Positions 27,975 to 43,365 of a DNA stretch of 57,637 nucleotides are shown here, piece after piece (the first letter of the stretch is position 1; every line of letters begins with the position of its first letter). The stretch is taken from NCBI RefSeq assembly GCF_003788585.1, contig NZ_AYKG01000015.1, positions 1 to 57,637 on the forward strand, written 5' to 3'. The DNA comes from Salinisphaera japonica YTM-1. GTDB lineage: Bacteria; Pseudomonadota; Gammaproteobacteria; Nevskiales; Salinisphaeraceae. Position numbers and translations under genes: made by a program. Below the pieces are notes generated by a model. It worked only from the letters and a program-made list of their open reading frames with translations. It was not told where the DNA came from and did not search any database.

Positions 27975-28210
27975 ATCGCAGATTAGCGGGACGCCACGCC
28001 GCGCAAGCGAATCGTCCGCAAAGAACGCAAATGAGCGCAAATAACGTGCGATGTGGCATCGAAGCGACTCGGGCAGCCCGAACGCGTGCGCGCTGAAAGG
28101 GAGTTATTCCGAAAGACGTCTTTCATGGGCCTTCATCGCCCACTTGATCCGCATGAATAGACCGTAACCGCTATGGCCTGTGGTCTTTATTTGCGTCTAT
28201 TTGCGGACTG
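27975..28210. repeat. Opposed-arm intergenic repeat, variant with GCAAA units
   Basis: Left arm 28017-28046 has CGCAAAGAA, CGCAAATGA and CGCAAATAA units in tandem; right arm 28185-28208 has TTTATTTGCG and TCTATTTGCGG, the complementary orientation. Between them is about 140 bp with no gene. Same architecture as the CGCAGATTA elements, with a variant unit. Confidence 0.55.
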
Positions 28211-28241
28211 TCATTGTCGAATCCCGGCGATCTGCGAACAA

Positions 28242-28272
28242 CCAAAAAAAAGGCCGCTTGCGCGGCCTTGGA
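28242..28272 (-). terminator. Intrinsic terminator of the candidate small RNA
   Basis: On the minus strand AAGGCCGC and GCGGCCTT pair around GCAA and run into eight T. There is no annotated gene upstream on this strand until glrR 550 bp away, which is the first hint of a separate transcript. Confidence 0.88.
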
Positions 28273-28587
28273 TCGCTGATTCAGCGACAGTAAAAGAGCT
28301 GTTTCAACAGCTTTTATATTTCAGATCCGTTGAGCCGAGCCGACGACGCCGAGGCACGAGGGGGGACCGGGAGACGCCGGCACGATCAACGAAACATCTG
28401 GCGATCTCGAAGATCGCTTCTTAATTCGCCTTGATCGGGCCACGTTGCCGAGGCACGAGGGGGGACCGAGGGTTCATGGCCCGACCAGGCGAAACCGGGA
28501 CCGAGCACGCCGTTGCGGCTCGGCCTTGAACGGTGTTGTGTCACGGTCTAAAACGCGATCGCACCCGCGTTTCTGTTGGTGTTGATC
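28242..28587 (-). ncRNA. Candidate sigma-54-driven small RNA with twin C-rich loops
   Basis: Transcript of about 345 nt bounded by a consensus sigma-54 promoter (start near 28587) and a strong terminator, with no convincing ORF. It contains two identical 22-base segments (plus-strand 28348-28369 and 28447-28468) whose RNA form includes GGUCCCCCCUCGUGCCUCGG. The upstream copy is enclosed by long arms (28477-28493 with 28425-28442), the downstream copy by six-base arms (28375-28380 with 28340-28345), so both would be displayed in loops. Other hairpins are CCGAGC..GCTCGG, GCGATCT..AGATCGC and AAAGCTGTT..AACAGCT. C-rich loops of this kind pair with Shine-Dalgarno sequences in known sRNAs. Position after glrR and an upstream TGTC-N10-GACA site suggest control by GlrR. 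Not recognisably GlmY or GlmZ. Confidence 0.65.
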
Positions 28588-28595
28588 TATACCTA

Positions 28596-28612
28596 AGCAA
28601 GCCGCGTGCCAA
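28596..28612 (-). promoter_or_regulatory. Consensus sigma-54 promoter of the candidate small RNA
   Basis: Minus strand TTGGCACGCGGCTTGCT agrees with YTGGCACG-N4-TTGCW at all fixed positions. Predicted start is around 28585-28587. An AT-rich stretch (28611-28660) lies just upstream and could bend. Confidence 0.75.
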
Positions 28613-28726
28613 CTTAAAAACAGTTATTAATCAGTGGCTTGAAAAGCAATCGATCAAACATCGTGGTCACGGATACGCTGAGTGCGGCGTGTGGGCGACG
28701 AAACGTTGCCTGACGGCGACACATCA

Positions 28727-28742
28727 TGGCCGAATTCGGCCA
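28727..28742. promoter_or_regulatory. Perfect 16-bp palindrome upstream of the small RNA promoter
   Basis: TGGCCGAATTCGGCCA lies between the GlrR-type site and the sigma-54 promoter, about 115-130 bp before it. It could be an operator for another regulator; no protein is assigned. Confidence 0.35.
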
Positions 28743-28769
28743 AAGCCTTGATTAGAGGAAGACAGTGAC

Positions 28770-28787
28770 TGTCGTCGATAGGCGACA
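28770..28787. promoter_or_regulatory. GlrR-type enhancer site TGTC-N10-GACA
   Basis: TGTC at 28770-28773 and GACA at 28784-28787 with exactly ten bases between. This is the site described for GlrR (QseF) upstream of glmY and glmZ in enterobacteria. It lies about 185-200 bp before the predicted start of the small RNA, normal for an enhancer, and in the gap directly after glrR. Confidence 0.6.
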
Positions 28788-28824
28788 TATGGGCCGTGTC
28801 GTCGCAGATACTGTCGTTGATCGG

Positions 28825-30207
28825 CTACAGCGAGCCGGCATCCGGCTTGTAGCGGCCGGCGTCCACGCCGTGTTTCGACAACAGTTTGTAGAACTCGGTG
28901 CGGTTGCGCTCGGCCAGACGTGCGGCGCGCGAGACGTTGCCCTGGGTCAAACGCAACAGGTGGATCAGATAATCGCGCACGAACTCGTCACGCGCCTCGG
29001 CCAGTGGGCGTACCAGCGTGGCTTCGGCGTGTGCATCGCCGTATTGTGCCAGCGCCTTGTCCACGGTCTGTCGATTGATCACCGGCCCGCGCGAGAGCGC
29101 GATATTGTGTTCGACCAGGTTGGACAGCTGGCGAATATTGCCGGGCCAGCCATAAGCCACAAGGCGCTCCATGGCGTTGGGTGAATACACCTTGGCCCGG
29201 CTGCCATCGACCGCGCTGAAACGCTCGAGAAAATGCCGTGCCAGCGGGGCGATATCTTCCGGGCGCTGGGCCAGCGGAGGCAGCGCCAGCGTGACGACCG
29301 CCAGGCGGTAGTACAGATCCTGGCGAAAACGGCCCTCGGCGATCGCGGTATCGAGCTGGCGATGGGTGGCCGACAGCACGCGCACGTCGATGGGAACCGT
29401 CTGGCTGGCCCCGACGGGCTGCACCTCGCGTTCTTGCAGCACGCGCAGCAGTTTGACCTGTAACGACAGCGGCATATCGCCGATTTCGTCGAGCAGGATC
29501 GTGCCGCCACGCGCGGTGCGTAGCAGGCCGGGCTTGTCGGTCTTGGCGTCGGTGAATGCGCCTTTTTCATGCCCGAAAAGCTCGGATTCCAGCAGCGACT
29601 CGGCCAGCGCGCCACAGTTGATGGCCACGAACGGCCCGTCGGCTCGCGGGCTGGCCTCGTGAATCACGCGCGCCATGACTTCCTTGCCGGTGCCAGAGTC
29701 GCCGGTGATCAACACGCTGGACTGGGTGGCCGCCACGAGCCGGGCCTCTTCCAGGCGCTCGGCCATGAGCGGCGAGCGGGTGATCAGGCGTTTCTGCCAT
29801 ACCCGTCGCCAGCCGCCGCGCGTGGTGCCGCCCTGGGCCAGCGCCTGATCCACGCGCGCAAGCAGCTCGGTCTTGTCGATGGGTTTGGTCAGAAAATCGA
29901 GTGCGCCGGACTGGGTGGCCGCCACGGCTTCGGGAATCGTGCCGTGCGCGGTGATGAGAATCACCGGTAGATCGGCGTGCTCGGCACACAGGCGTGTCAG
30001 CAGGCCCATGCCGTCGATACCGGCCATGCGCAGATCGGTGATCACGCATTCAACGGGTTGCTCGTTGGCGACGACCAGCGCGGCCTGTGCATTGTCCACG
30101 TCGGTGACCGTATGGCCCACGCTTTCCAGGCGAAGTGTCAGAAGCCGGCGCAGGCTCGGATCATCGTCGACGAGCAGGATATGACCGGTGCGCGGGCTTG
30201 ACGTCAT
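28825..30207 (-). CDS. glrR: Sigma-54-dependent response regulator GlrR (QseF)
   Basis: 460 residues. Receiver domain 1-125 with phospho-acceptor Asp58 in ITDLRM and Lys108. AAA+ domain about 140-370 with Walker A GDSGTGKE (169-176) and Walker B GGTILLDEIGDM. The C-terminal Fis-type helix-turn-helix ends in GNVSRAARLAERNRTEFYKLLSKHGVD, closely like GlrR. Phosphorylated by GlrK, it activates sigma-54 promoters. The sigma-54 contact loop reads GAFTDA (216-221) instead of GAFTGA. Its ATG overlaps the qseG stop (ATGA). rpoN is 11 kb away in this window. Confidence 0.92.
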   Translation of the reverse strand: MTSSPRTGHILLVDDDPSLRRLLTLRLESVGHTVTDVDNAQAALVVANEQPVECVITDLRMAGIDGMGLLTRLCAEHADLPVILITAHGTIPEAVAATQSGALDFLTKPIDKTELLARVDQALAQGGTTRGGWRRVWQKRLITRSPLMAERLEEARLVAATQSSVLITGDSGTGKEVMARVIHEASPRADGPFVAINCGALAESLLESELFGHEKGAFTDAKTDKPGLLRTARGGTILLDEIGDMPLSLQVKLLRVLQEREVQPVGASQTVPIDVRVLSATHRQLDTAIAEGRFRQDLYYRLAVVTLALPPLAQRPEDIAPLARHFLERFSAVDGSRAKVYSPNAMERLVAYGWPGNIRQLSNLVEHNIALSRGPVINRQTVDKALAQYGDAHAEATLVRPLAEARDEFVRDYLIHLLRLTQGNVSRAARLAERNRTEFYKLLSKHGVDAGRYKPDAGSL

Positions 30208-30779
30208 TGTCCGCCCCGGTCGCGTTCGATCTGGCGCTCAATATTCGAAAGCGCGGATATCTTGGCCCGGGCCGCGGCCAATTCCTGCTCGAGGTCGGCG
30301 ATTCGTGCGCGGTCGCGTGCGGGCGCTGGCGTTACGTTGTTATGGCGCGCCGCTTTGCTGCTGATGCGATCCATGTGGCGTGCCTGATCGATCAGAAACC
30401 GACGGCTGATCCGGTCCCAGTCGTTGGGTGTCGTGGCCAGTGCCTTGCGCGCATAGCGCGCGGCTTCGTCGGGGGTATACAGCCGCTGACGCGGCATCCC
30501 CAGCGCGATCGACAGCCGCGCATAGTTGGCCGCCGTGGGATGAGCGCGTACCCCGCGGCGCATCTGATGCACGGCTTTTTGTCTGACTTCGGGATTGGCC
30601 CGATCCAGCATATCGCTGTACTCCAGCAGGCCCACCACCGGTGAAACACGAGGGCTGGCCACGCGATCCGGGGCCGACGAACCGGTCGACGGCCGATGGG
30701 CACAGCCGACAGCCGTCAGCGCGGCGATGAAAGCCACGAGATTAACCAGCGCGATTTGTCGGATGCGGGATATGGACAT
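30204..30779 (-). CDS. qseG: QseG/YfhG-like lipoprotein of the glrKR operon
   Basis: 191 residues. Signal peptide with lipobox AVGC (about residues 23-26), so the protein is probably anchored in the outer membrane. The middle is helical (YSDMLDRANPEVRQKAVHQM..) and the C-terminus is a coiled coil (ARIADLEQELAAARAKISALSNIERQIE). In E. coli the lipoprotein between glrK and glrR (QseG) interacts with the kinase and tunes its activity; I infer the same here from position and layout, as sequence similarity is weak. The ATG at 30779 overlaps the end of glrK by 38 bp. Confidence 0.78.
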   Translation of the reverse strand: MSISRIRQIALVNLVAFIAALTAVGCAHRPSTGSSAPDRVASPRVSPVVGLLEYSDMLDRANPEVRQKAVHQMRRGVRAHPTAANYARLSIALGMPRQRLYTPDEAARYARKALATTPNDWDRISRRFLIDQARHMDRISSKAARHNNVTPAPARDRARIADLEQELAAARAKISALSNIERQIERDRGGQ

Positions 30780-32217
30780 GAAAGACACTTGAATGAACAG
30801 AGTGAGCTGCGACCTCGGCATACCCGCCATGTGCCTCGGCACACTCGCGAACCACGGACAGGCCGATGCCGGTCCCGGTGACATGGGCTCGACCGGCCGC
30901 GGGGCGTTCACCGCGTTCGAACGCCTGGAAGATGCGGCGCCGATCGGCTTCGGGCACGCCGGCGCCTTGGTCGATCACATGGAAATCCAGGCCGTTGTCG
31001 TCGCGACTCAGCGTAATACGAATATCGCTGTTATCGGGCGCGTATTTCAACGCGTTGGTCAACAGATTGTCGACAATCAACTGCATTCGGTCGATATCGA
31101 GTGCGAAAATGATGCTTTCGGCCGGTGTGTGGACGGTCAGGCCGCGTGCCTGCTGGACAAGACGATGCCGCCTGACCTGGGCCTCGATCAAGCCCGAGAC
31201 ATCACACTCGGCGATATCCAGACGAACCTGGGCATCCTGCCAGCTGGCGAAGTTCAACAGGTTATCGATCAGGCTGGTCAGTTCCTGAGTATTGGCATCC
31301 ACCAGGCGGGCAACCTCGGTCTGAGGCGTGCTCAAGTGGCCCAGCGAACCATCCACCAGAAGCGCCGAGCCTTCGCGTATCGAGGCCAGCGGTGTTTTCA
31401 GCTCGTGCGACATATGTCGTAGAAACTGTTGCTTCTGGGCTTCCTGATCGACCAGGCGGGCGCGCATCCAGTCCAGACGCTCACCGATGCGATCGAATTC
31501 GGCCACCGGCGCCCCGATCTCGATCGGCGAACGCATATCGCCTTCGCCCAGGGTGCGGATTGCGGCCACGATTTCGCGCATCGGCCGGGCAATGAGAAAG
31601 CCCAGAAACACAGCCAGGGCGATCACGATCGGCACGAGCGCAAACAGACAGACGAGCATCACATGGCGCGCGGTGGCCGCGGTCGCACGCAGCGCGGTCA
31701 GACGCTCGCGCACGAAACGCCGCCCGTGTGCCGCGAGATTCTCGATGACCGTGCGACTGGTATCCAGATCGGCGATGACCCGGCCGACATCGGCCGGATC
31801 GGCACGCAGATGTGACGTCATGGCCCGGGTGCGCCGGGCCAGCGTGGCCAGGCGACGATCCGGCAGGCCGGTAATATCAAGGTCTGCGAGATCGTTCAGG
31901 GTTGCGGTCACGGCCTCGGCCTGGCCGGCGAAGCGATCGATCAGGGCCGGATCGCCCAGCACGCGATACTGACGCGCGCTGCGTTCCATATCCACGACCA
32001 GCGAAGCCAGGTGACGCGACTGGCGCGTCACGGTCACGCCCTGAATCACCAGGCGCTCGCTTTGTTGATACAGGCTATCGACATAAAACAGCCCCGTGCC
32101 GATCGCCACGATCAAGGGCAGGGCCACGATGGCAAAGGCCGCGAGCACCAGGCCGATGATCGAGCGCGGTCGAAAGTAACCACGACGGTCGCGAGCGATA
32201 TCGGCTGGAGGTTGCAT
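30742..32217 (-). CDS. glrK: Sensor histidine kinase GlrK (QseE)
   Basis: 491 residues, inner-membrane kinase. First membrane segment about 21-45, periplasmic sensor domain of helices about 46-185, second segment about 186-210, HAMP linker (LIARPMREIVAAIRTLGEGDMRSPI). The phospho-acceptor His lies in RHMSHELKTPLASIREG, and the ATPase has DNLLTNALKYAPDN, DQGAGVPEADRRRIFQAFERG and GTGIGLSVV boxes. With QseG and GlrR it makes the three-gene envelope-stress operon known in enterobacteria. A TATGAT box ends six bases before the ATG, so the message may be leaderless. Confidence 0.88.
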   Translation of the reverse strand: MQPPADIARDRRGYFRPRSIIGLVLAAFAIVALPLIVAIGTGLFYVDSLYQQSERLVIQGVTVTRQSRHLASLVVDMERSARQYRVLGDPALIDRFAGQAEAVTATLNDLADLDITGLPDRRLATLARRTRAMTSHLRADPADVGRVIADLDTSRTVIENLAAHGRRFVRERLTALRATAATARHVMLVCLFALVPIVIALAVFLGFLIARPMREIVAAIRTLGEGDMRSPIEIGAPVAEFDRIGERLDWMRARLVDQEAQKQQFLRHMSHELKTPLASIREGSALLVDGSLGHLSTPQTEVARLVDANTQELTSLIDNLLNFASWQDAQVRLDIAECDVSGLIEAQVRRHRLVQQARGLTVHTPAESIIFALDIDRMQLIVDNLLTNALKYAPDNSDIRITLSRDDNGLDFHVIDQGAGVPEADRRRIFQAFERGERPAAGRAHVTGTGIGLSVVRECAEAHGGYAEVAAHSVHSSVFHVHIPHPTNRAG

Positions 32218-35793: not shown

Positions 35794-37533
35794 TCAGGCC
35801 GCGATCTCGCGGCCCAGGGCGTCGAGTGCTTCGCGATAGGCCGCGACATCGGTCAGCGCAAGGATCTCGCTGGCACGCTGGCGCAGGCGGGCGACATCGG
35901 CCCCCATCACGGCGCGTTTGACCTCGAGCACGCTGGCCGGGTGCATCGAGAACTCGGTCAGCCCCAGGCCGAGCAGGAGCGCGGTATAGCGTTTGTCCGA
36001 GGCCATCTCACCGCACATCGAAACACTGATACCGGCGGCCTTGCCGGCCTCGATGGTCATGCGGATCAGCGTAAGCACGGCCGGGTGGAGCGGGTCATAG
36101 AGATAGTTGATCTCGTCGTCGATCCGGTCGATGGCCAGGGTGTACTGGATCAGATCGTTGGTGCCCAGCGAGAAGAAATCGCAGTAGCGTGCCAGCGTGG
36201 GTGCGGCCAGTGCGGCGGCCGGCACTTCGATCATCGCCCCCACGGCCAGATTCTCGTCGAAGGGGATGTTCTCGCGCTTCAACTCCTTGCCGACTTCGTC
36301 GATGAGATGACGGGCCTGGCGCATTTCACCCACGGTGGAAATCATGGGCAGCATGATGCGCATGGGGCCTTCGGCCGAAGCCCGCAGCAGGGCCCGTAGC
36401 TGGGTCCGAAACAGGCCGGTTTCCTTCAGGCACAGACGAATCGCGCGCAGGCCGAGCGCGGGGTTGGTCGCGATCTTGCTGGTACGGCCCAGCTGCTTGT
36501 CGGCGCCGGCATCCAGGGTACGGATCGTGATCGGCCCGTCGACGGCGGCCAGAACCTGTCGATAAGCCTCGAGTTGTTCTTCCTCGCTGGGGGACTCCTC
36601 GCGATTCATGAACAGAAACTCGGTGCGATACAGGCCGACGCCTTCAGCGCCGACCTGGCCGGCTTCTTCGGTATCGGTGGGCAGCTCGACGTTGGCCAGC
36701 ATGGTCACGTGTACGCCGTCGGCCGAGACTGCCGGCTCGTCTTTCAGAACCGCCAGCATGCGTTGATAGCGTGCATTGGCGGCCTGGCGATGCCGGAAGA
36801 ACGCCAGCGCGCCCTCGTCCGGGGTGGCCAGCAGATGCCCGGCCTCGCCGTCGATGATCAGCGTTTCGTCATCGGCCAGAATACGCCGCACGCCGCGTAC
36901 GCCCACGAGTGCCGGGATACGCAGGCTGCGCGCCAGAATCGCGGTATGCGACAGCGGCCCGCCGTGCTCGGTCACGAAACCGGCAATGCCCTGCTGGTGC
37001 AACAGGATGATATCGGCCGGGGCCAGCTCGTCGGCGACCACGATCGGCGGCGGTGTATCCGTGTCTGGGTCGGCCGGGCGTACGGGCTGCTCCTGGTTGA
37101 GCAGCACCCGCTGCAGGCGCGCGGTCACATGCGCGATATCGTCGCGCCGGGTGCGCAGGTAGCTGTCGTCCATCTGATCGAAGACATCGATCAGCTCTTC
37201 GGACTGGAGCTTGAGTGCCCATTCGGCGTTGCACAGATCGTTGGTGATCCGGGCGGCCACGGTATCGATCAGGGCCGCATCGTCCATCATCAAAAGATGG
37301 GTCTCGATGAAGGCGCCGATTTCCGAGGGCGCGTTGGCCGGTATCTGTTCGCGCACGGCCGCCAACTGCTCGCGCCCGTCGCGTGCGGCCTGTTTGAAGC
37401 GAGCGATCTCGGTGTCGACATCGCTGGCCTCGATCCGGTATTCCGGAATATCCAGATCCGTGCCGTGCATGCGATGACACCGTCCGATGGCGACACCGCG
37501 CGAGATCCCGATTCCTGATAGCCAGAGACTCAT
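35794..37533 (-). CDS. ptsI: PTS enzyme I (phosphoenolpyruvate-protein phosphotransferase)
   Basis: 579 residues. Takes phosphate from PEP and passes it to HPr. The active-site His is in GGPLSHTAILARSL; the PEP-binding barrel has IRTLDAGADKQ, EGPMRIMLPMISTVGEM and SMCGEMASDK. It begins directly with the enzyme I N-domain, so it lacks the GAF domain that marks PtsP of the nitrogen PTS, though context suggests a regulatory role. It is the last gene of the EIIA-HPr-EI run; its start is seven bases after the HPr stop. Confidence 0.92.
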   Translation of the reverse strand: MSLWLSGIGISRGVAIGRCHRMHGTDLDIPEYRIEASDVDTEIARFKQAARDGREQLAAVREQIPANAPSEIGAFIETHLLMMDDAALIDTVAARITNDLCNAEWALKLQSEELIDVFDQMDDSYLRTRRDDIAHVTARLQRVLLNQEQPVRPADPDTDTPPPIVVADELAPADIILLHQQGIAGFVTEHGGPLSHTAILARSLRIPALVGVRGVRRILADDETLIIDGEAGHLLATPDEGALAFFRHRQAANARYQRMLAVLKDEPAVSADGVHVTMLANVELPTDTEEAGQVGAEGVGLYRTEFLFMNREESPSEEEQLEAYRQVLAAVDGPITIRTLDAGADKQLGRTSKIATNPALGLRAIRLCLKETGLFRTQLRALLRASAEGPMRIMLPMISTVGEMRQARHLIDEVGKELKRENIPFDENLAVGAMIEVPAAALAAPTLARYCDFFSLGTNDLIQYTLAIDRIDDEINYLYDPLHPAVLTLIRMTIEAGKAAGISVSMCGEMASDKRYTALLLGLGLTEFSMHPASVLEVKRAVMGADVARLRQRASEILALTDVAAYREALDALGREIAA

Positions 37534-37540
37534 GGCGTGC

Positions 37541-37810
37541 CTATTGGGATTCGCCGAAGCGATCCGCCACCAGATCGGCGATACCGTCCAGGGCTTCTTC
37601 GGCGTCCGGGCCTTCGGCGGTGACCGAGATATGGCTGCCGCGTGCTGCTGCCAGCATCATCACGCCCATGATCGACTTGCCCGACACCTCGCGCCCGTCC
37701 TTGACCACGGTGATCCGTGACTCATAGCGCGAGGCCACGGTCACGAACTTGCTGGCCGCCCGTGCATGCAGGCCAAGCTTGTTGACGATAGGCAGATCAC
37801 GCGTGGGCAT
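37541..37810 (-). CDS. ptsH: HPr phosphocarrier protein
   Basis: 89 residues. His15-type site in NKLGLHARAASKFV, and a Ser46-type site in SGKSIMGVMMLAAARG. The latter is the substrate site of HPr kinase, which is encoded two genes upstream, so the pair appears functional. GGAAC precedes the start. HPr here probably serves as a regulatory carrier (NPr-like), because no sugar EIIB or EIIC gene is in the cluster. Confidence 0.93.
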   Translation of the reverse strand: MPTRDLPIVNKLGLHARAASKFVTVASRYESRITVVKDGREVSGKSIMGVMMLAAARGSHISVTAEGPDAEEALDGIADLVADRFGESQ

Positions 37811-37837
37811 AGGTCGTTCCTTGTTTCAAGACGGCGG

Positions 37838-38233
37838 TCAGGCCGGCGGCGTCAGTCGAGCGGTGCTGCGGCTGCCGGCCTCGGCGGCCAGCGTGGCCAA
37901 TGTCGCCAGATCGCTGTCGTGGTAATTATAAACCCGCAAGAGCATGGCCAGGCTGAGGCCCGCCACGATCTCGATATCGCGACGGTCTCCGGCCGCGCGC
38001 AGGACACTATTACACGGCGAGGCGCCGGCGACATCGACCAGTACCAGCGTATTGGCATGCGCTGAAGGGGCCAGAGCGGCTACGATCTCGCGCGCGGCGC
38101 CGCCCTCGGCGCGAGCGTGGTCGAAATCGATGGCCACGGTCGACAGCATCGGCGGGCCGAGAATCGTCTTGGCCGCTGTGGCCAGCGCCGAGGCCAGCGG
38201 GGCGTGAGCGACCAGTACCAGACGCGGGCTCAT
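37838..38233 (-). CDS. PTS EIIA component, mannose family
   Basis: 131 residues. The active His is in LVLVAHAPLASALATAA (His10), as in EIIA-Man proteins (VxHGxLA). No EIIB, EIIC or EIID partners are present. Similar orphan EIIA-Man proteins with HPr, EI and HprK are known from Xanthomonas and betaproteobacteria as regulatory PTS. The start overlaps the rapZ stop (ATGA), so translation is coupled. Confidence 0.87.
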   Translation of the reverse strand: MSPRLVLVAHAPLASALATAAKTILGPPMLSTVAIDFDHARAEGGAAREIVAALAPSAHANTLVLVDVAGASPCNSVLRAAGDRRDIEIVAGLSLAMLLRVYNYHDSDLATLATLAAEAGSRSTARLTPPA

Positions 38234-39084
38234 AGCTCGTTGTGGCGGACCAGGACATGGTCGTTATCCGCGCGCAGACAGGCCGCCACCGCCTCGGCCA
38301 GATAGACCGAGCGATGCTTGCCGCCGGTACAGCCGATCGCCACGGTGATGTAAGTGCGGTCCTGGGCGGCGAAATCCGGCAGCCAGCGGGTCAGAAAGCC
38401 GGCGATATGATCACGCATTTCCGGCAATGCCGGCTGGGCGTCCAGGTGATCGATGACGGGTTGATCCCGGCCGGTCAGCGCGCGCAGCTCGGGCACCCAG
38501 TGCGGGTTGGGCAGACAGCGCACGTCAAAGACGAAATCGACCGCCGGCGGCAGGCCGTATTTGAACCCGAACGACTGCACCAGGATCGCCAATTCGCCGG
38601 CCACGCGGCCCTCGACCTCGTTGCGCACCAGATCGCGCAGCTGATGGATATTGAGCCGGCTGGTATCGATCGAGACATCGGCTTTTTCGGCGATAGGCCG
38701 GGTCAGCGCGATATCTGCGGCCACCGCATCCACGAGCGTGCGGTTGTCGCCGGTCAGCGGATGCCGTCGTCGTGTCTCGGAATAACGCCGTAGAATCGTC
38801 TTCTCGTCGGCGTAGAGATAGAGCACGTGCAGATCGATGCCGGCGGCGCGCAGGGTATCGATGCGCTCGGCGAAATGGCCGATTTCGGCCTCGCGCGCCC
38901 GTGCATCCACCCCCACGGCCAGACGATCGAAATCCAGGCCCTGGCGGTGCAACGTCTCGGCCGAGACCTCGCCGAGCAGGCCCAGCGGCAGGTTATCGAT
39001 ACAGTAATAACCCAGATCCTCGAGCATGTTGAGCGCGACGGACTTGCCGGCGCCGGCCAGCCCGCTCACGACGGTCAGTCGCAT
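38230..39084 (-). CDS. rapZ: RNase adapter protein RapZ
   Basis: 284 residues. N-terminal P-loop GLAGAGKSVALNMLEDLGYYCIDNLP (about 8-33) and C-terminal domain with GCTGGKHRSVYLAEAVAACL, the part that binds sRNA and RNase E in E. coli. There it targets GlmZ for cleavage and is titrated by GlmY, controlling glmS. In the same window are glrKR and a new candidate GlrR-controlled sRNA, so an RNA partner other than GlmY is conceivable. Overlaps hprK upstream by ten bases. Confidence 0.93.
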   Translation of the reverse strand: MRLTVVSGLAGAGKSVALNMLEDLGYYCIDNLPLGLLGEVSAETLHRQGLDFDRLAVGVDARAREAEIGHFAERIDTLRAAGIDLHVLYLYADEKTILRRYSETRRRHPLTGDNRTLVDAVAADIALTRPIAEKADVSIDTSRLNIHQLRDLVRNEVEGRVAGELAILVQSFGFKYGLPPAVDFVFDVRCLPNPHWVPELRALTGRDQPVIDHLDAQPALPEMRDHIAGFLTRWLPDFAAQDRTYITVAIGCTGGKHRSVYLAEAVAACLRADNDHVLVRHNEL

Positions 39085-40076
39085 TCGTTTCTCCCGATCG
39101 CCTGTGCTTGACGGGCGGCAAACTGCTCGTCGGAGTGCTGGCCCTGCATGCGCAGCAGATGATCGCGGGCCGCGGCCTCGACCAACACCGACAGATTATG
39201 CCCAACGGCCACGGGCAGACAGATCTCGGGAATCCGGGTATCCAGAATATCGCGCGTCGTGCGTGCCCCGGTCAGCCGATCCGGCTCCAGCGGCACCTCG
39301 GCGTCGGGGCGTACCAGCCGGATGATCAGGCCGAGCTGCTTGCGGCGTTTGATCGCGGCCTCACCGAACATGGCACGGATATTGAGAATACCCAGGCCGC
39401 GCACTTCCAGAAAATCCTGGAGCAGGGGCGGGCTGCCGCCGTTGAGATCGTCCGGGCCGAGCAGCACGAACTCCGGCGCATCGTCGGCAACCAGGCGATG
39501 CCCGCGATTGATCAGCTCCAGAGCCAGCTCGGACTTGCCCACGCCCGGATCACCGATCAACAACAGCCCGATCGAGAGCACTTCAAGAAACACGCCGTGC
39601 AGGGTGATCTGACGCGCCAGGCTTTCGCCGAGGAAATGACGTAGCCGATACGCCACGCGATGGCCGCTGGCCGCAGTCGTGAATACCGCGATATCGGCGC
39701 GGCGCAGGGCGTCGTGCAGGCGTGATTCAAGCTGACAGTCGTCGGCCAGGATCACCAGTTTGGTACGCGCCGTGGACAGCTGTTCGCTGACATGAGCGGC
39801 CAGCTCCGGCGACAGCCCGGCCAGGTAGGCGATCTCGGGCTCACCGACGATCTGTACCTGGGGCGGGTGAATGAAATTGAGATAGCCGACCGTTGGCACG
39901 CGCCAGCCGCGATGTTCGGTCGGCCCAATCGTCTGGCCCGCGCCGATATCGCGATCGGGCCAGGCCAGCGCCAGCGAGGCCGCCAGCTGTTCATGGACGG
40001 TCTCGATAGCCACCCGCCGTTCGCTGGCATGGGCTTCAGCGCTCTGGGCCACGTGTTCGGACAGGTCTTCGTGCAT
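39075..40076 (-). CDS. hprK: HPr kinase/phosphorylase
   Basis: 333 residues. Walker A GDPGVGKSELALEL is near residue 170, with the His-containing HGVFLEVLSIGLLL before it, and the HprK signature LEVRGLGILNIRAMFGEAAI after it. It phosphorylates and dephosphorylates the Ser46 site of HPr. Enterobacteria lack it; many other gammaproteobacteria keep it next to ptsN and rapZ as here. The ATG touches the ptsN stop codon. Confidence 0.93.
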   Translation of the reverse strand: MHEDLSEHVAQSAEAHASERRVAIETVHEQLAASLALAWPDRDIGAGQTIGPTEHRGWRVPTVGYLNFIHPPQVQIVGEPEIAYLAGLSPELAAHVSEQLSTARTKLVILADDCQLESRLHDALRRADIAVFTTAASGHRVAYRLRHFLGESLARQITLHGVFLEVLSIGLLLIGDPGVGKSELALELINRGHRLVADDAPEFVLLGPDDLNGGSPPLLQDFLEVRGLGILNIRAMFGEAAIKRRKQLGLIIRLVRPDAEVPLEPDRLTGARTTRDILDTRIPEICLPVAVGHNLSVLVEAAARDHLLRMQGQHSDEQFAARQAQAIGRNECD

Positions 40077-40540
40077 CAGCTGAGCACGACGTCGTTTGCC
40101 AACAGGGTGCGATAAAGCGCGGCGTCATCGTCGGCATCGCGCAGCTCGATGATCACGGCCTCGTTGGAAAACAACTCGGCCAGGGCGCGCAGCAGTTTCA
40201 GGTGCTCGTCGGTCGCGGCCTCGGGGACCAGCATGCCGAAGATCAGATCGACCGGCATATTGTCGCTGGCCTGGAAATCCACGCCCTGGGGCAGACGGAT
40301 GAACGCGCCGATACAGTCATCGGTGCCTTTCATGCGGGCATGCGGCAGGGCCACGCCGTCGCCGACGGCCGTGCTGCCCAGTTTCTCGCGCCCGATCAGG
40401 CCGTTGAAGACATCGGCCGCCGTCAGATACGGGGTGCCCTCGGCCAGGATCTCGGCCAGCTGTTCGAGCGCGCGTTTCTTGGATTGAACATCCGGCACGC
40501 GACGCACGCGCTCGGGGGCAACGATATCGGCGATGGTCAT
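40076..40540 (-). CDS. ptsN: Nitrogen-regulatory EIIA protein (EIIA-Ntr)
   Basis: 154 residues, normal for PtsN. The phosphorylated His is in GDGVALPHARMKGTDDC. Known roles in relatives are control of K+ transport, sigma-54-linked metabolism and stress. I chose the ATG at 40540, which gives the family N-terminus MTIADIVAPERV; an extension to 40660 would run into the intercistronic hairpin and is not supported. Confidence 0.92.
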   Translation of the reverse strand: MTIADIVAPERVRRVPDVQSKKRALEQLAEILAEGTPYLTAADVFNGLIGREKLGSTAVGDGVALPHARMKGTDDCIGAFIRLPQGVDFQASDNMPVDLIFGMLVPEAATDEHLKLLRALAELFSNEAVIIELRDADDDAALYRTLLANDVVLS

Positions 40541-40618
40541 GCCGAACAGCCCGCGGGCACGAAACGAGACAAACCGAAAAGACTGTTCATGCGACACCGG
40601 TATCAATGGACGAATAAG

Positions 40619-40647
40619 GCCGGCCGAATCAGATAGATCCGGCCGGC
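40619..40647. promoter_or_regulatory. Intercistronic hairpin between hpf and ptsN
   Basis: Perfect eight-base arms GCCGGCCG and CGGCCGGC enclose 13 bases. On the minus strand CTTATT follows, too weak a T-run for a strong terminator. It may be an attenuator or processing site that lowers expression of ptsN and later genes relative to hpf. Confidence 0.45.
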
Positions 40648-40700
40648 AGGTGATGATCACCGACGGCCCGACCCGGGCAACGGGCCGAGCCGGAGACTGT

Positions 40701-41027
40701 CTAGTCGGTGCTCATGTCGATATGACGGGCCTCGCGATTGTGATGATCGCAGGCTTTTTCCTTGTGCTTGACGGTCTGGCGATCGAGCTTGTCCACCATG
40801 GCGTCGATCGCGGCGTACATGTCGTCCTTGGTGGCCTCGGCATGCAGCTTGGCCCCACGGATCTGCATGGTGGCCTCGGCCTTGTGACGCAGCTTTTCCA
40901 CTTCCAGAACGACCTCGGCATCCAGCACGTGATCGAAATGGCGCTCGATGCGCTCCATCTTCGAGCCGACGTAGTCTCGCAGGGCATGGGTCATATCCAG
41001 ATGATGACCAGAGACATTGAGGTTCAT
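40701..41027 (-). CDS. hpf: Ribosome hibernation promoting factor, short form
   Basis: 108 residues. Binds the 30S subunit in stationary phase and promotes inactive 100S ribosomes. The core MNLNVSGHHLDMTHALRDYVGSKMERIERHF is typical, and the protein ends in a His-rich tail (KHKEKACDHHNREARH). The ATG at 41027 has AAGGAG upstream. It lies directly downstream of rpoN, as in most gammaproteobacteria. Confidence 0.93.
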   Translation of the reverse strand: MNLNVSGHHLDMTHALRDYVGSKMERIERHFDHVLDAEVVLEVEKLRHKAEATMQIRGAKLHAEATKDDMYAAIDAMVDKLDRQTVKHKEKACDHHNREARHIDMSTD

Positions 41028-41102
41028 TGCGTGCTCCTTGGCAGCAGTGGGTAAACGCTGCGACCGGTGCGGCGACAAGACCCGCGCCGGTCGGATCCGA
41101 AT

Positions 41103-42542
41103 CTATGTCTTTCTGCGTCGTTCGTGCGAGGGCGCGATCGATAGCGCCTCGCGATACTTGGCCACGGTACGCCGGGCGACACGGATGCCGTTATCCAGCA
41201 GCCGCTCGGCGAGCTTGCTGTCGGATAGCGGCTTGTCCGCGGCTTCGCCGGCCACCATGCGCTTGATCATGGCCTGAATCGCCGTGGCCGAGGCGCTTCC
41301 GCCGTCGGTGGTCGATACATGGCTGGAAAAGAAATACTTGAGCTCGAACACGCCGCGCGGCGTCTGCATGTATTTGTTCGCCGTCGCCCGGGAGACGGTC
41401 GATTCATGTATGTCCAGTCGTTCGGCAACATCACGCAGCACCAGCGGCTTCATGGCCTCCTCGCCATATTCCAGAAAACCGCGCTGGGCTTCAACTATGG
41501 CGTGGGCGACCTCGAGCAGGGTGTCGTTGCGCGACTTGAGGCTGTTGAGAAAGAACCGGGCCTCCTGCAGATGCGAGCGCAGCGTGCTCTGGTCGGCCGA
41601 CTTGTCCGCGCGCTTGATCAACGACAGGTAGTGCGCGTTGATACGCAGTTTCGGCGCGATCTCCGGGTTCAGCGCCACCTGCCAGCCGGCCGCACTGCGC
41701 GTGACGTGAACCTCAGGCACGACGTAGTCGGCGGCCTGGGCCGAAAACGCATCCCCCGGATAGGGCGTAAGTGAGCGCACCACGCGCCGGGCGGCCGCCA
41801 GATCGTCGGCGTCCACGCCCAGCTGGCCCGCCAGATCCGCGTGCTCGCCCTCGGCGAGCACGGCCAGCCATTCATCGCTGAGCAGGCGGCCGGCCAGGGC
41901 ATGGCCGGGCAGGCTCGAATCCAGGCCGGCCCATTGAATCTGCAAACATTCGCCCAGCGAGCGCGCGGCCACGCCCGGCGGGTCAAACGCCTGGATCGCG
42001 GCCAGCACGGCCTCGGTCTCGGCATGATCCAGCGTGGTGTCGCGCGCGACGGTGGTGGCCAGCTCGTCCCAATCGTCGATCAAACCGTTGCCATCGATGG
42101 CATCGATGATGATTTCGGCCGCCGCCCGCTCGGCGGGTGAAAAACCGGCCATGTCGGCCTGCCAGATCAGGTGCGTGGCCAGATCCGGGGTGCTCGACAG
42201 ATTGGCCTGGCGATAGGCCCAGTAGTCGTCGTCGTCACCGGCGGGCGCGCTGCTGGTCGGGGCGGGCGCACTGGCGTAGATGTCGTTCCAGTCGGCGTCC
42301 ACGGGCAGGTTTTCCGGAATATCGGGGCTGTCGCCGCCCGAGGCGTCCGGCTCGGCCTGGCGCGTCTTGGCATCAACTTCCTGTGTGCCGTCGTCGGCCT
42401 CGAGCATGACGTTGGTTTCCAGCGCTTCCTGGATCTCGGTCTTCAGGTCGAGCGTGGACAGCTGCAGCATGCGGATGGCCTGCTGCAGGGCCGGCGTCAT
42501 GGTCAGCGTCTGGCCGAGGTTGAGGCCCAGTGACTGTTTCAT
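41103..42542 (-). CDS. rpoN: RNA polymerase sigma-54 factor
   Basis: 479 residues. Region I (1-50, MKQSLGLNLGQTLTMTPALQQAIRMLQLSTLDL) interacts with activators. An acidic region II follows (about 50-120). The core-binding part is next, then the helix-turn-helix and the RpoN box ARRTVAKYREAL near the end. It recognises -24/-12 promoters, three of which are proposed in this window, and needs an activator such as GlrR. Either of two nearby ATGs (42542 or 42548) could be used. The gap to lptB is 46 bp or less, so the operon continues from the lpt genes. Confidence 0.95.
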   Translation of the reverse strand: MKQSLGLNLGQTLTMTPALQQAIRMLQLSTLDLKTEIQEALETNVMLEADDGTQEVDAKTRQAEPDASGGDSPDIPENLPVDADWNDIYASAPAPTSSAPAGDDDDYWAYRQANLSSTPDLATHLIWQADMAGFSPAERAAAEIIIDAIDGNGLIDDWDELATTVARDTTLDHAETEAVLAAIQAFDPPGVAARSLGECLQIQWAGLDSSLPGHALAGRLLSDEWLAVLAEGEHADLAGQLGVDADDLAAARRVVRSLTPYPGDAFSAQAADYVVPEVHVTRSAAGWQVALNPEIAPKLRINAHYLSLIKRADKSADQSTLRSHLQEARFFLNSLKSRNDTLLEVAHAIVEAQRGFLEYGEEAMKPLVLRDVAERLDIHESTVSRATANKYMQTPRGVFELKYFFSSHVSTTDGGSASATAIQAMIKRMVAGEAADKPLSDSKLAERLLDNGIRVARRTVAKYREALSIAPSHERRRKT

Positions 42543-42588
42543 GCTCATTGGGCTCAGGCACCGCCCGTCGTGGCGTTGCAAACACGGC

Positions 42589-43365
42589 TCATAGCCGGAA
42601 ATCTTCGCCGAGATACACGTCGCGCACCTTCTGATCGGACAGGATCTTGTCGCCTGCACCTTCAGCGATCACCTCGCCGTCGGCCAGGATATAGGCCCGG
42701 TCACAGATCGACAGCGTTTCGCGCACGTTGTGATCGGTGATCAACACGCCGATGCCGCGATTCTGCAGGTGGCGGATGATCGCGCGGATATCGCCGATCG
42801 AGATCGGGTCGATCCCGGCAAAGGGCTCGTCCAGCAGCATGAAGGTGGGCTCGGCCGCCAGGGCACGGGCGATCTCGACCCGGCGCCGCTCGCCGCCCGA
42901 CAACGACAGGCCGGTCGAATCCGCGATATGCCCGATCGACAGCTCGTCGAGCAGCTTGGTGAGCTCGGATTGAATATCGGCCCTGGACAGGCCGGGCCGA
43001 ACCTGCAGGATCGCGCGGATATTGTCGGCGACGGTGAGTTTGCGAAACACCGAGGCTTCCTGCGGCAGATAGCCGATTCCGAGCCGGGCGCGTCGATGCA
43101 TGGGCAGGCCCACGAGATCGGTCTCGCCCAGCCGGATCTGGCCGGCATCCGGGGCCACCAGGCCCACGATCATGTAAAACGAGGTGGTCTTGCCTGCGCC
43201 GTTGGGCCCCAGCAGGCCCACGACCTCACCGCGGGCAACGCGCAGATCCACCCCGGCGACCACTTCGCGGGCCTTGAAACGCTTGCGCAGGCCCGTGGCC
43301 ACCAATTCGGCGTGTTCATCCGCCCGAGTGGCTCGGGCCTGGCGTTCGGCTTTGGAATCCGCCAT
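42589..43365 (-). CDS. lptB: LPS export ABC transporter ATPase LptB
   Basis: 258 residues. ATPase of the LptBFGC complex that extracts lipopolysaccharide from the inner membrane. Walker [18 protein letters not shown]-loop [15 protein letters not shown], signature [15 protein letters not shown] and Walker [16 protein letters not shown]. It is about 17 residues longer at the N-terminus than the E. coli protein (charged [19 protein letters not shown]). Start and lptA stop overlap as TAATG. Confidence 0.95.

Follow-up and report, generated by a model that had tools for sequence, protein, structure and literature searches.

A conserved locus for a putative GlrR- and sigma-54-controlled RNA with tandem C-rich hairpins in Salinisphaera

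Downstream of the response regulator gene glrR, Salinisphaera japonica YTM-1 carries what sequence comparison indicates to be a lineage-specific structured RNA made up of tandem C-rich hairpins, which often appears to be the 3' portion of a small mRNA, and appears to stand alone in the window analyzed here (the whole 57,637-nucleotide stretch of contig NZ_AYKG01000015.1). Comparison among genomes documents the locus, the geometry of its promoter and GlrR boxes, the structure, the conservation of the loop, and the absences and remnants of an upstream reading frame. The RNA is of a known kind, a sigma-54-dependent sRNA or 3' UTR RNA, in which variable hairpin dosage and repeated ORF absence are unusual; new here are the hairpin copy number, from 2 to 5, and an EF-hand gene before the hairpins in 9 of 14 species. 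It represents a new RNA family that, across the 85 order-level and 369 class-level genomes searched, is so far confined to the taxonomic family to which Salinisphaera belongs.

Reading the minus strand of the window past glrR, the order of elements is GlrR box, sigma-54 promoter, two hairpins and terminator. The features of the locus and its surroundings are:

28825..30207, minus strand: glrR (qseF), sigma-54-dependent response regulator (Pfam Response_reg and Sigma54_activat; NCBIfam NF011695)
28812..28829, unstranded: second GlrR box, with one mismatch, which overlaps the stop codon of glrR and lies about 208 bases before the promoter
28770..28787, unstranded: GlrR box with a perfect TGTC-N10-GACA, centered 166 bases before the promoter
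28704..28721, unstranded: weak candidate for a third GlrR box, with two mismatches, about 100 bases before the promoter (read from sequence)
28596..28612, minus strand: sigma-54 promoter TTGGCACGCGGCTTGCT (sequence match)
28423..28496, minus strand: C-rich hairpin unit 1, containing the 22-mer at 28447-28468 (covariation; covariance model 77.5 bits, the model having been built with both window units included)
28323..28397, minus strand: C-rich hairpin unit 2, containing the 22-mer at 28348-28369 (80.3 bits under the same model)
28244..28269, minus strand: intrinsic terminator, 8-pair stem at 28250-28269 and eight T at 28244-28251, of which the first two also belong to the stem
30204..30911, minus strand: qseG-like gene between kinase and regulator (labeled by position; no Pfam or NCBIfam match)
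30742..32217, minus strand: glrK (qseE)-like histidine kinase (HisKA, HAMP, HATPase_c; labeled by position)
38230..39084, minus strand: rapZ, about 10 kb from the RNA gene (NCBIfam NF003828 above cut-off; alignment to E. coli RapZ)

Transcription would start at about 28585-28587. The predicted 346-nt RNA folds more stably than shuffled sequences (z -5.8; 0 of 100 shuffles as good), and the 22-mer CGGTCCCCCCTCGTGCCTCGGC occurs in it twice in identical form. No minus-strand ORF of at least 60 amino acids lies between promoter and terminator in the window, and two plus-strand ORFs overlap the RNA gene (28173-28424, 83 aa, and 28533-28751, 72 aa). A preliminary description of this DNA had proposed the full-consensus promoter, the perfect upstream box, the two identical 22-base segments within pairing arms, the eight-T terminator and the absence of an intervening ORF, and all of these hold, the last for minus-strand frames of the above length. 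Among NCBIfam models, the window regulator is best matched by GlrR NF011695 at 546 bits, a score below the equivalog cut-off of 763 for that model, with the next model at 400 and NtrC at 391 bits. Less than 15 kb from the RNA, rpoN, hpf, ptsN, hprK, rapZ and the genes for a PTS EIIA, HPr and ptsI form one cluster (35794-42659), in which all labels except that of rapZ come from reading translations.

The promoter is the sole perfect sigma-54 match in the window, where shuffled sequences predict 0.01 (1 of 100 has one). Sites with at most two mismatches number 8 against 7.5 expected and, since this approximates the chance expectation, carry no meaning. Perfect TGTC-N10-GACA sites occur twice in the window against 0.63 in shuffles, 15 of 100 of which reach two; the window box is hence not above chance by itself, and becomes significant because its position is fixed in relatives. 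In 13 of 14 Salinisphaera genomes, a box that departs from the consensus by no more than one base sits 165-170 bases ahead of the promoter, the exception being L005, in which the box sits at 211 only. Further boxes are found at 210-213 bases in six genomes (L004, L005, L007, L008, L011 and L014) and at 102-103 in four (L004, L007, L008 and L014). Perfect boxes are present in 8 of the 13 glrR-to-promoter intervals scored, which omit L013 for having no glrR on its contig, against a shuffled mean of 0.04 and maximum of 1. The sigma-54 promoter is perfect in seven genomes and has one mismatch in the other seven. The boxes of E. coli K-12 glmY lie at 97, 160 and 193 bases, and TGTCN10GACA is described as bound by GlrR/QseF in enterobacteria (PMC8745638). 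Together, this comparative evidence, with a box geometry like that of E. coli glmY, supports control of the RNA gene by GlrR and sigma-54, and GlrR would be expected to bind the Salinisphaera boxes.

The same arrangement of glrR, boxes and promoter was found in 2 of the 16 glrR-like loci read from other genera (L106 and L110), with perfect boxes at 106/173 and 102/168 bases from the promoter, respectively, and is absent in the other 14. At L106 (G021), two perfect GlrR boxes and a sigma-54 promoter lie directly downstream of glrR. At L110 (G022), the region past glrR likewise holds two perfect boxes and a sigma-54 promoter, also perfect, after which come a short signal-peptide-like ORF and then a gene for a BON-like protein, as labeled from reading the translation. 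The control layout thus recurs with a different product, the L110 promoter preceding a BON-like protein gene.

A search of 61 genomes located the same locus in 13 further Salinisphaera genomes, bringing the total to 14. The promoter, at least two loops and the terminator, whose conservation in relatives the preliminary description had put forward as a check, are present in all 14, the terminator as a terminator-like hairpin with at least five T. In 13 of them glrR lies directly upstream of the RNA gene, and in G007 glrR and the hairpins fall on separate contigs. Loop number is two in seven genomes, three in five, four in one and five in one (38 in total), so that the earlier characterization as a twin-loop RNA fits the window, but not the whole genus. 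A stricter loop pattern matched 12 genomes, the two others being missed because of an extra C in both their loops.

Outside the genus, a covariance-model search of 85 genomes of the order revealed one clear unit match, in G015, from another genus of the same family (E 8.9e-7), together with two weak ones (G084, E 0.047; G044, E 0.091). The G015 locus (L086) holds a single unit between a kinase-lipoprotein pair and a Mur-ligase-like gene, as labeled from reading the DNA, with a one-mismatch sigma-54-like site about 100 bases before it and no GlrR box within one mismatch; this genome has its best glrR match on another contig. Beyond the unit, on the minus strand of L086 (1398-2200), there is a further sigma-54-like site, preceded at 164 bases by a one-mismatch GlrR box, and then another C-rich hairpin and a terminator. 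Within the genus, no unit outside the locus scores better than E 0.09, the weak match being in G003 (E 0.099). A search for hairpin units (R1) in 369 genomes of the class, run with stricter filters and with 13 candidates scored per genome in most of the rows shown, matched three genomes, two Salinisphaera and G153 (E 0.009). The G153 match was taken as chance, its surroundings being read as a toxin-antitoxin pair, which we take to be of the BrnT/BrnA type. Viral contigs, searched with the exact 19-mer, and plasmids gave no match. Rfam returned nothing at gathering threshold for the window; at E up to 10, five loci yielded 20 matches, all under gathering scores (best E 0.14), with neither GlmY nor GlmZ among them. 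A narrow literature search on Salinisphaera small RNA listed a single paper, on radiotolerance.

The hairpin stems differ between units, and these differences include compensatory changes. In a model-fitted alignment of 39 units, which leans towards its own structure, 94.1% of cells are paired, 8 of 12 pairs show changes on both sides, and the covariation score is reached by 0 of 500 shuffles, slid controls falling far lower. RNAalifold recovered the same helix from a free alignment of 38 units, again with double changes in 8 of 12 pairs. Wobble pairs number 67 when the units are read as the minus strand and 6 when read as the other strand, pointing to the minus strand as the structured RNA. 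Pairwise identity across units reaches 99% in the loop core, compared with 69% and 64% in the arms. The loops, with 5 to 8 C each, are predicted to be accessible (unpaired probability 0.67-0.89 vs 0.34-0.40 for the whole RNA). Coding through the hairpins was considered and rejected; unit spacing is a multiple of three in only 6 of 24 cases, from which we take the hairpins to be non-coding, and the openness of frames was uninformative.

In 9 of the 14 genomes (L004-L010, L012 and L013), an ORF of 85-98 codons lies between the promoter and the first hairpin, which places the hairpins in its 3' UTR in these species. Its product combines a signal-peptide-like start with EF-hands; the Pfam EF-hand_5 match was obtained on the L009 protein, the other eight being assigned by alignment to it. 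With dN/dS values of 0.03-0.47 (28 of 36 pairs computable), the EF-hand ORF is under purifying selection. The window and its two nearest relatives lack it, and in L011 and L014 it has decayed. Aligned to a relative, the L014 remnant outscores all 200 of its shuffles by a clear margin (47 vs maximum 28), and the L011 remnant does so narrowly (35 vs maximum 32); against a more distant relative, the L014 remnant does not pass the shuffle test. On the GlrR tree, with two main branches inside the genus (support 88/87 and 94/91), the absences amount to three changes, also across the bootstrap range. Shuffled labels need as few changes in 56-71 of 500 trials, and the absences are thus not tightly clustered. 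Because remnants persist in L011 and L014, the three changes are best read as losses of the ORF, one of them in the window clade, where its former presence rests on the tree since no EF-hand remnant is detectable there. A conserved ORF in the interval, which the preliminary description had held to count against its proposal, therefore exists in 9 of 14 species and not in the window, and the hairpins outlast its loss. They are intact in all five ORF-less genomes, and hence in 14 of 14 overall, which is the best evidence that they work as an RNA in their own right.

The locus shares with glmY its TGTC-N10-GACA boxes at near-equal distances from a sigma-54 promoter and its position beside glrK-qseG-glrR; three putative QseF sites have also been described in Proteus. 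Unlike GlmY, the Salinisphaera RNA lies on the other side of the operon, carries repeated C-rich loops, matches no Rfam family and shows no detected pairing with glmS. The closest designs are the cuckoo/CIN1 and NfeR1 RNAs. CcsR1-4 of Rhodobacter (cuckoo/CIN1) is described as a stress promoter followed by a small ORF for a DUF1127 protein, by tandem CcsR RNAs that RNase E releases, and by a terminator (PMC10253847). NfeR1 (alpha-r14) is described as having three hairpins with one ultraconserved, functionally redundant anti-SD C-rich loop motif, stated for alpha-r14 to be CCUCCUCCC, on variable stems (PMC10746234). The cuckoo/CcsR loci are alphaproteobacterial, whereas Salinisphaera is a gammaproteobacterium, with CCCCCCUCGU instead of CCUCCUCCC in the loop, an EF-hand instead of a DUF1127 protein and sigma-54/GlrR instead of RpoH or RpoD. 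The CCUCCUCCC motif, which is also that of CcsR, occurs in 0 of 39 units, and no DUF1127 ORF was found upstream of the hairpins, the L009 ORF being an EF-hand one to which the other eight align and the window having no ORF. NrsZ of Pseudomonas, a processed sigma-54 sRNA encoded just downstream of the activator gene ntrC, is likewise a sigma-54 RNA adjoining the gene for its own activator; it differs in that the activator is NtrC rather than GlrR, which the scores above favor here, and in its described motif, ACAGGCAG. PmaR of Agrobacterium has a C-rich loop on a long stem as well, but only one such loop is described and its locus is unrelated.

By analogy with cuckoo/CIN1 and NfeR1, we favor, at somewhat better than even probability, a GlrR-activated sigma-54 RNA gene whose tandem C-rich hairpins serve as redundant trans-pairing seeds silencing several mRNAs. 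We infer transcription, GlrR dependence, action in trans, Hfq involvement, processing and targets, as follows. Phosphorylated GlrR on one to three TGTC-N10-GACA boxes would trigger sigma-54 transcription of an RNA whose functional part is an array of 2-5 long hairpins, each displaying a single-stranded CCCCCCUCGU loop. In most of the genus the same transcript would encode the small EF-hand protein upstream of the hairpins, and in the window clade it would carry hairpins only. Each loop would most likely act as a redundant seed that pairs in trans to several mRNAs, at sites that are G-rich and resemble Shine-Dalgarno sequences. Hfq, the gene for which is present in 14 of 14 genomes, would probably assist pairing, and RNase cutting in the A/U-rich linkers might precede action. 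An envelope-stress signal would in this way be converted into silencing of a set of genes. Anti-Shine-Dalgarno action of the C-rich seeds is plausible from these analogies; the conserved part of the loop (GGU...UCGUGCCUCG) exceeds generic anti-SD need, which could also mean a protein site.

Searches for targets bear on this point. Allowing one mismatch, the 13-base complement GAGGCACGAGGGG is matched 24 times away from the locus, across 11 of 14 genomes; these matches include no conserved target, and no two of their surroundings are related at the protein or DNA level. The CACGAGGGG pattern near ATG gave 44 rows in 12 of 14 genomes; in the 30 rows with loci, recurrence is limited to the closest genome pairs, where it involves repeat-like DNA or very short frames. 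The forward pattern outnumbers the same pattern read backwards (44 vs 7 rows), a difference not counted as support because the reversed pattern has no start codon. Pairing of glmS leaders with the C-rich loop, using the loop rather than the whole RNA, was equaled by 39-99 of 100 shuffles for the 12 usable leaders of 13 (L164 was left out, and G007 has no glmS match). Likewise, none of 23 start regions in the window, with start codons chosen by reading, paired below p 0.1. All of these tests would miss short seeds of 6-8 bases. Of the circuit outlined in the preliminary description, in which GlrR and sigma-54 drive a different RNA downstream of glrR, the glmY-like box geometry and a conserved RNA without GlmY or GlmZ likeness are borne out, but for its anti-SD type no conserved target was found.

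The glmY-like layout of the GlrR boxes also invites an alternative that we regard as unlikely, in which the repeated hairpins would bind the RapZ tetramer as a decoy or sensor RNA, replacing GlmY without sequence kinship. The E. coli RapZ tetramer is described as fitting structural repeats of GlmZ (PMC9841335), and the GlmZ Rfam model, searched genome-wide, exceeds its cut-off in 0 of 14 genomes. The window RapZ keeps H142, H190, C247, T248, G249, H252 and R253, as well as K170, R184, R196, R238 and K251, of the described contacts, but the phosphate-pocket residues may be kept for metabolite binding. The far C-terminus of E. coli RapZ, which holds a basic cluster described as implicated in RNA binding, is where the alignment falls short, stopping at residue 278 of 284, after which the window protein has one more residue. 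Shape recognition, moreover, does not account for a loop sequence conserved at 99%. K194, K203, F208, R211 and K270, the last of which we take to be a functional position, are replaced in Salinisphaera RapZ. The proximity of rapZ to the RNA gene argues for a link, but rapZ is commonly found near rpoN. A related scenario, to which we give little credence, holds that the GlrR output RNA was replaced wholesale while the enhancer was kept, that a repeat-hairpin RNA docks on RapZ and does GlmY's job, and that this RNA originated at the 3' end of an mRNA for an envelope protein, the frame of which was lost three times.

A sponge that sequesters another RNA or a different RNA-binding protein would be in line with a repeat number of 2-5 and a nearly invariant loop, as titration predicts; with no complementary partner conserved in the genus and no protein candidate, we consider it improbable. 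That the hairpins follow an ORF under purifying selection in 9 of 14 species would suit a cis-acting 3' UTR that stabilizes or localizes the EF-hand mRNA, but the hairpins are intact in the five ORF-less genomes and an mRNA stabilizer does not need an invariant loop, making this quite improbable in our estimation. Hardly credible is a repetitive DNA element or chance, which would explain why the units are palindromic and repeated, but is at odds with a single locus per genome (save for the weak G003 match), strand-specific wobble and a conserved promoter context.

The favored reading, a GlrR-activated RNA with redundant C-rich seeds, would make this locus a convergent counterpart of the alphaproteobacterial cuckoo RNAs, with a loop dosage of 2-5. 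The genus would offer a natural series in which an mRNA gives up its reading frame and an RNA remains. More broadly, these results suggest that the enhancer layout of a two-component system can stay the same between E. coli and Salinisphaera even though the product differs: the shared layout is found with the sRNA gene glmY, with a gene for a BON-like protein in one other genus, with an mRNA that combines an EF-hand frame and hairpins, and with hairpins alone.
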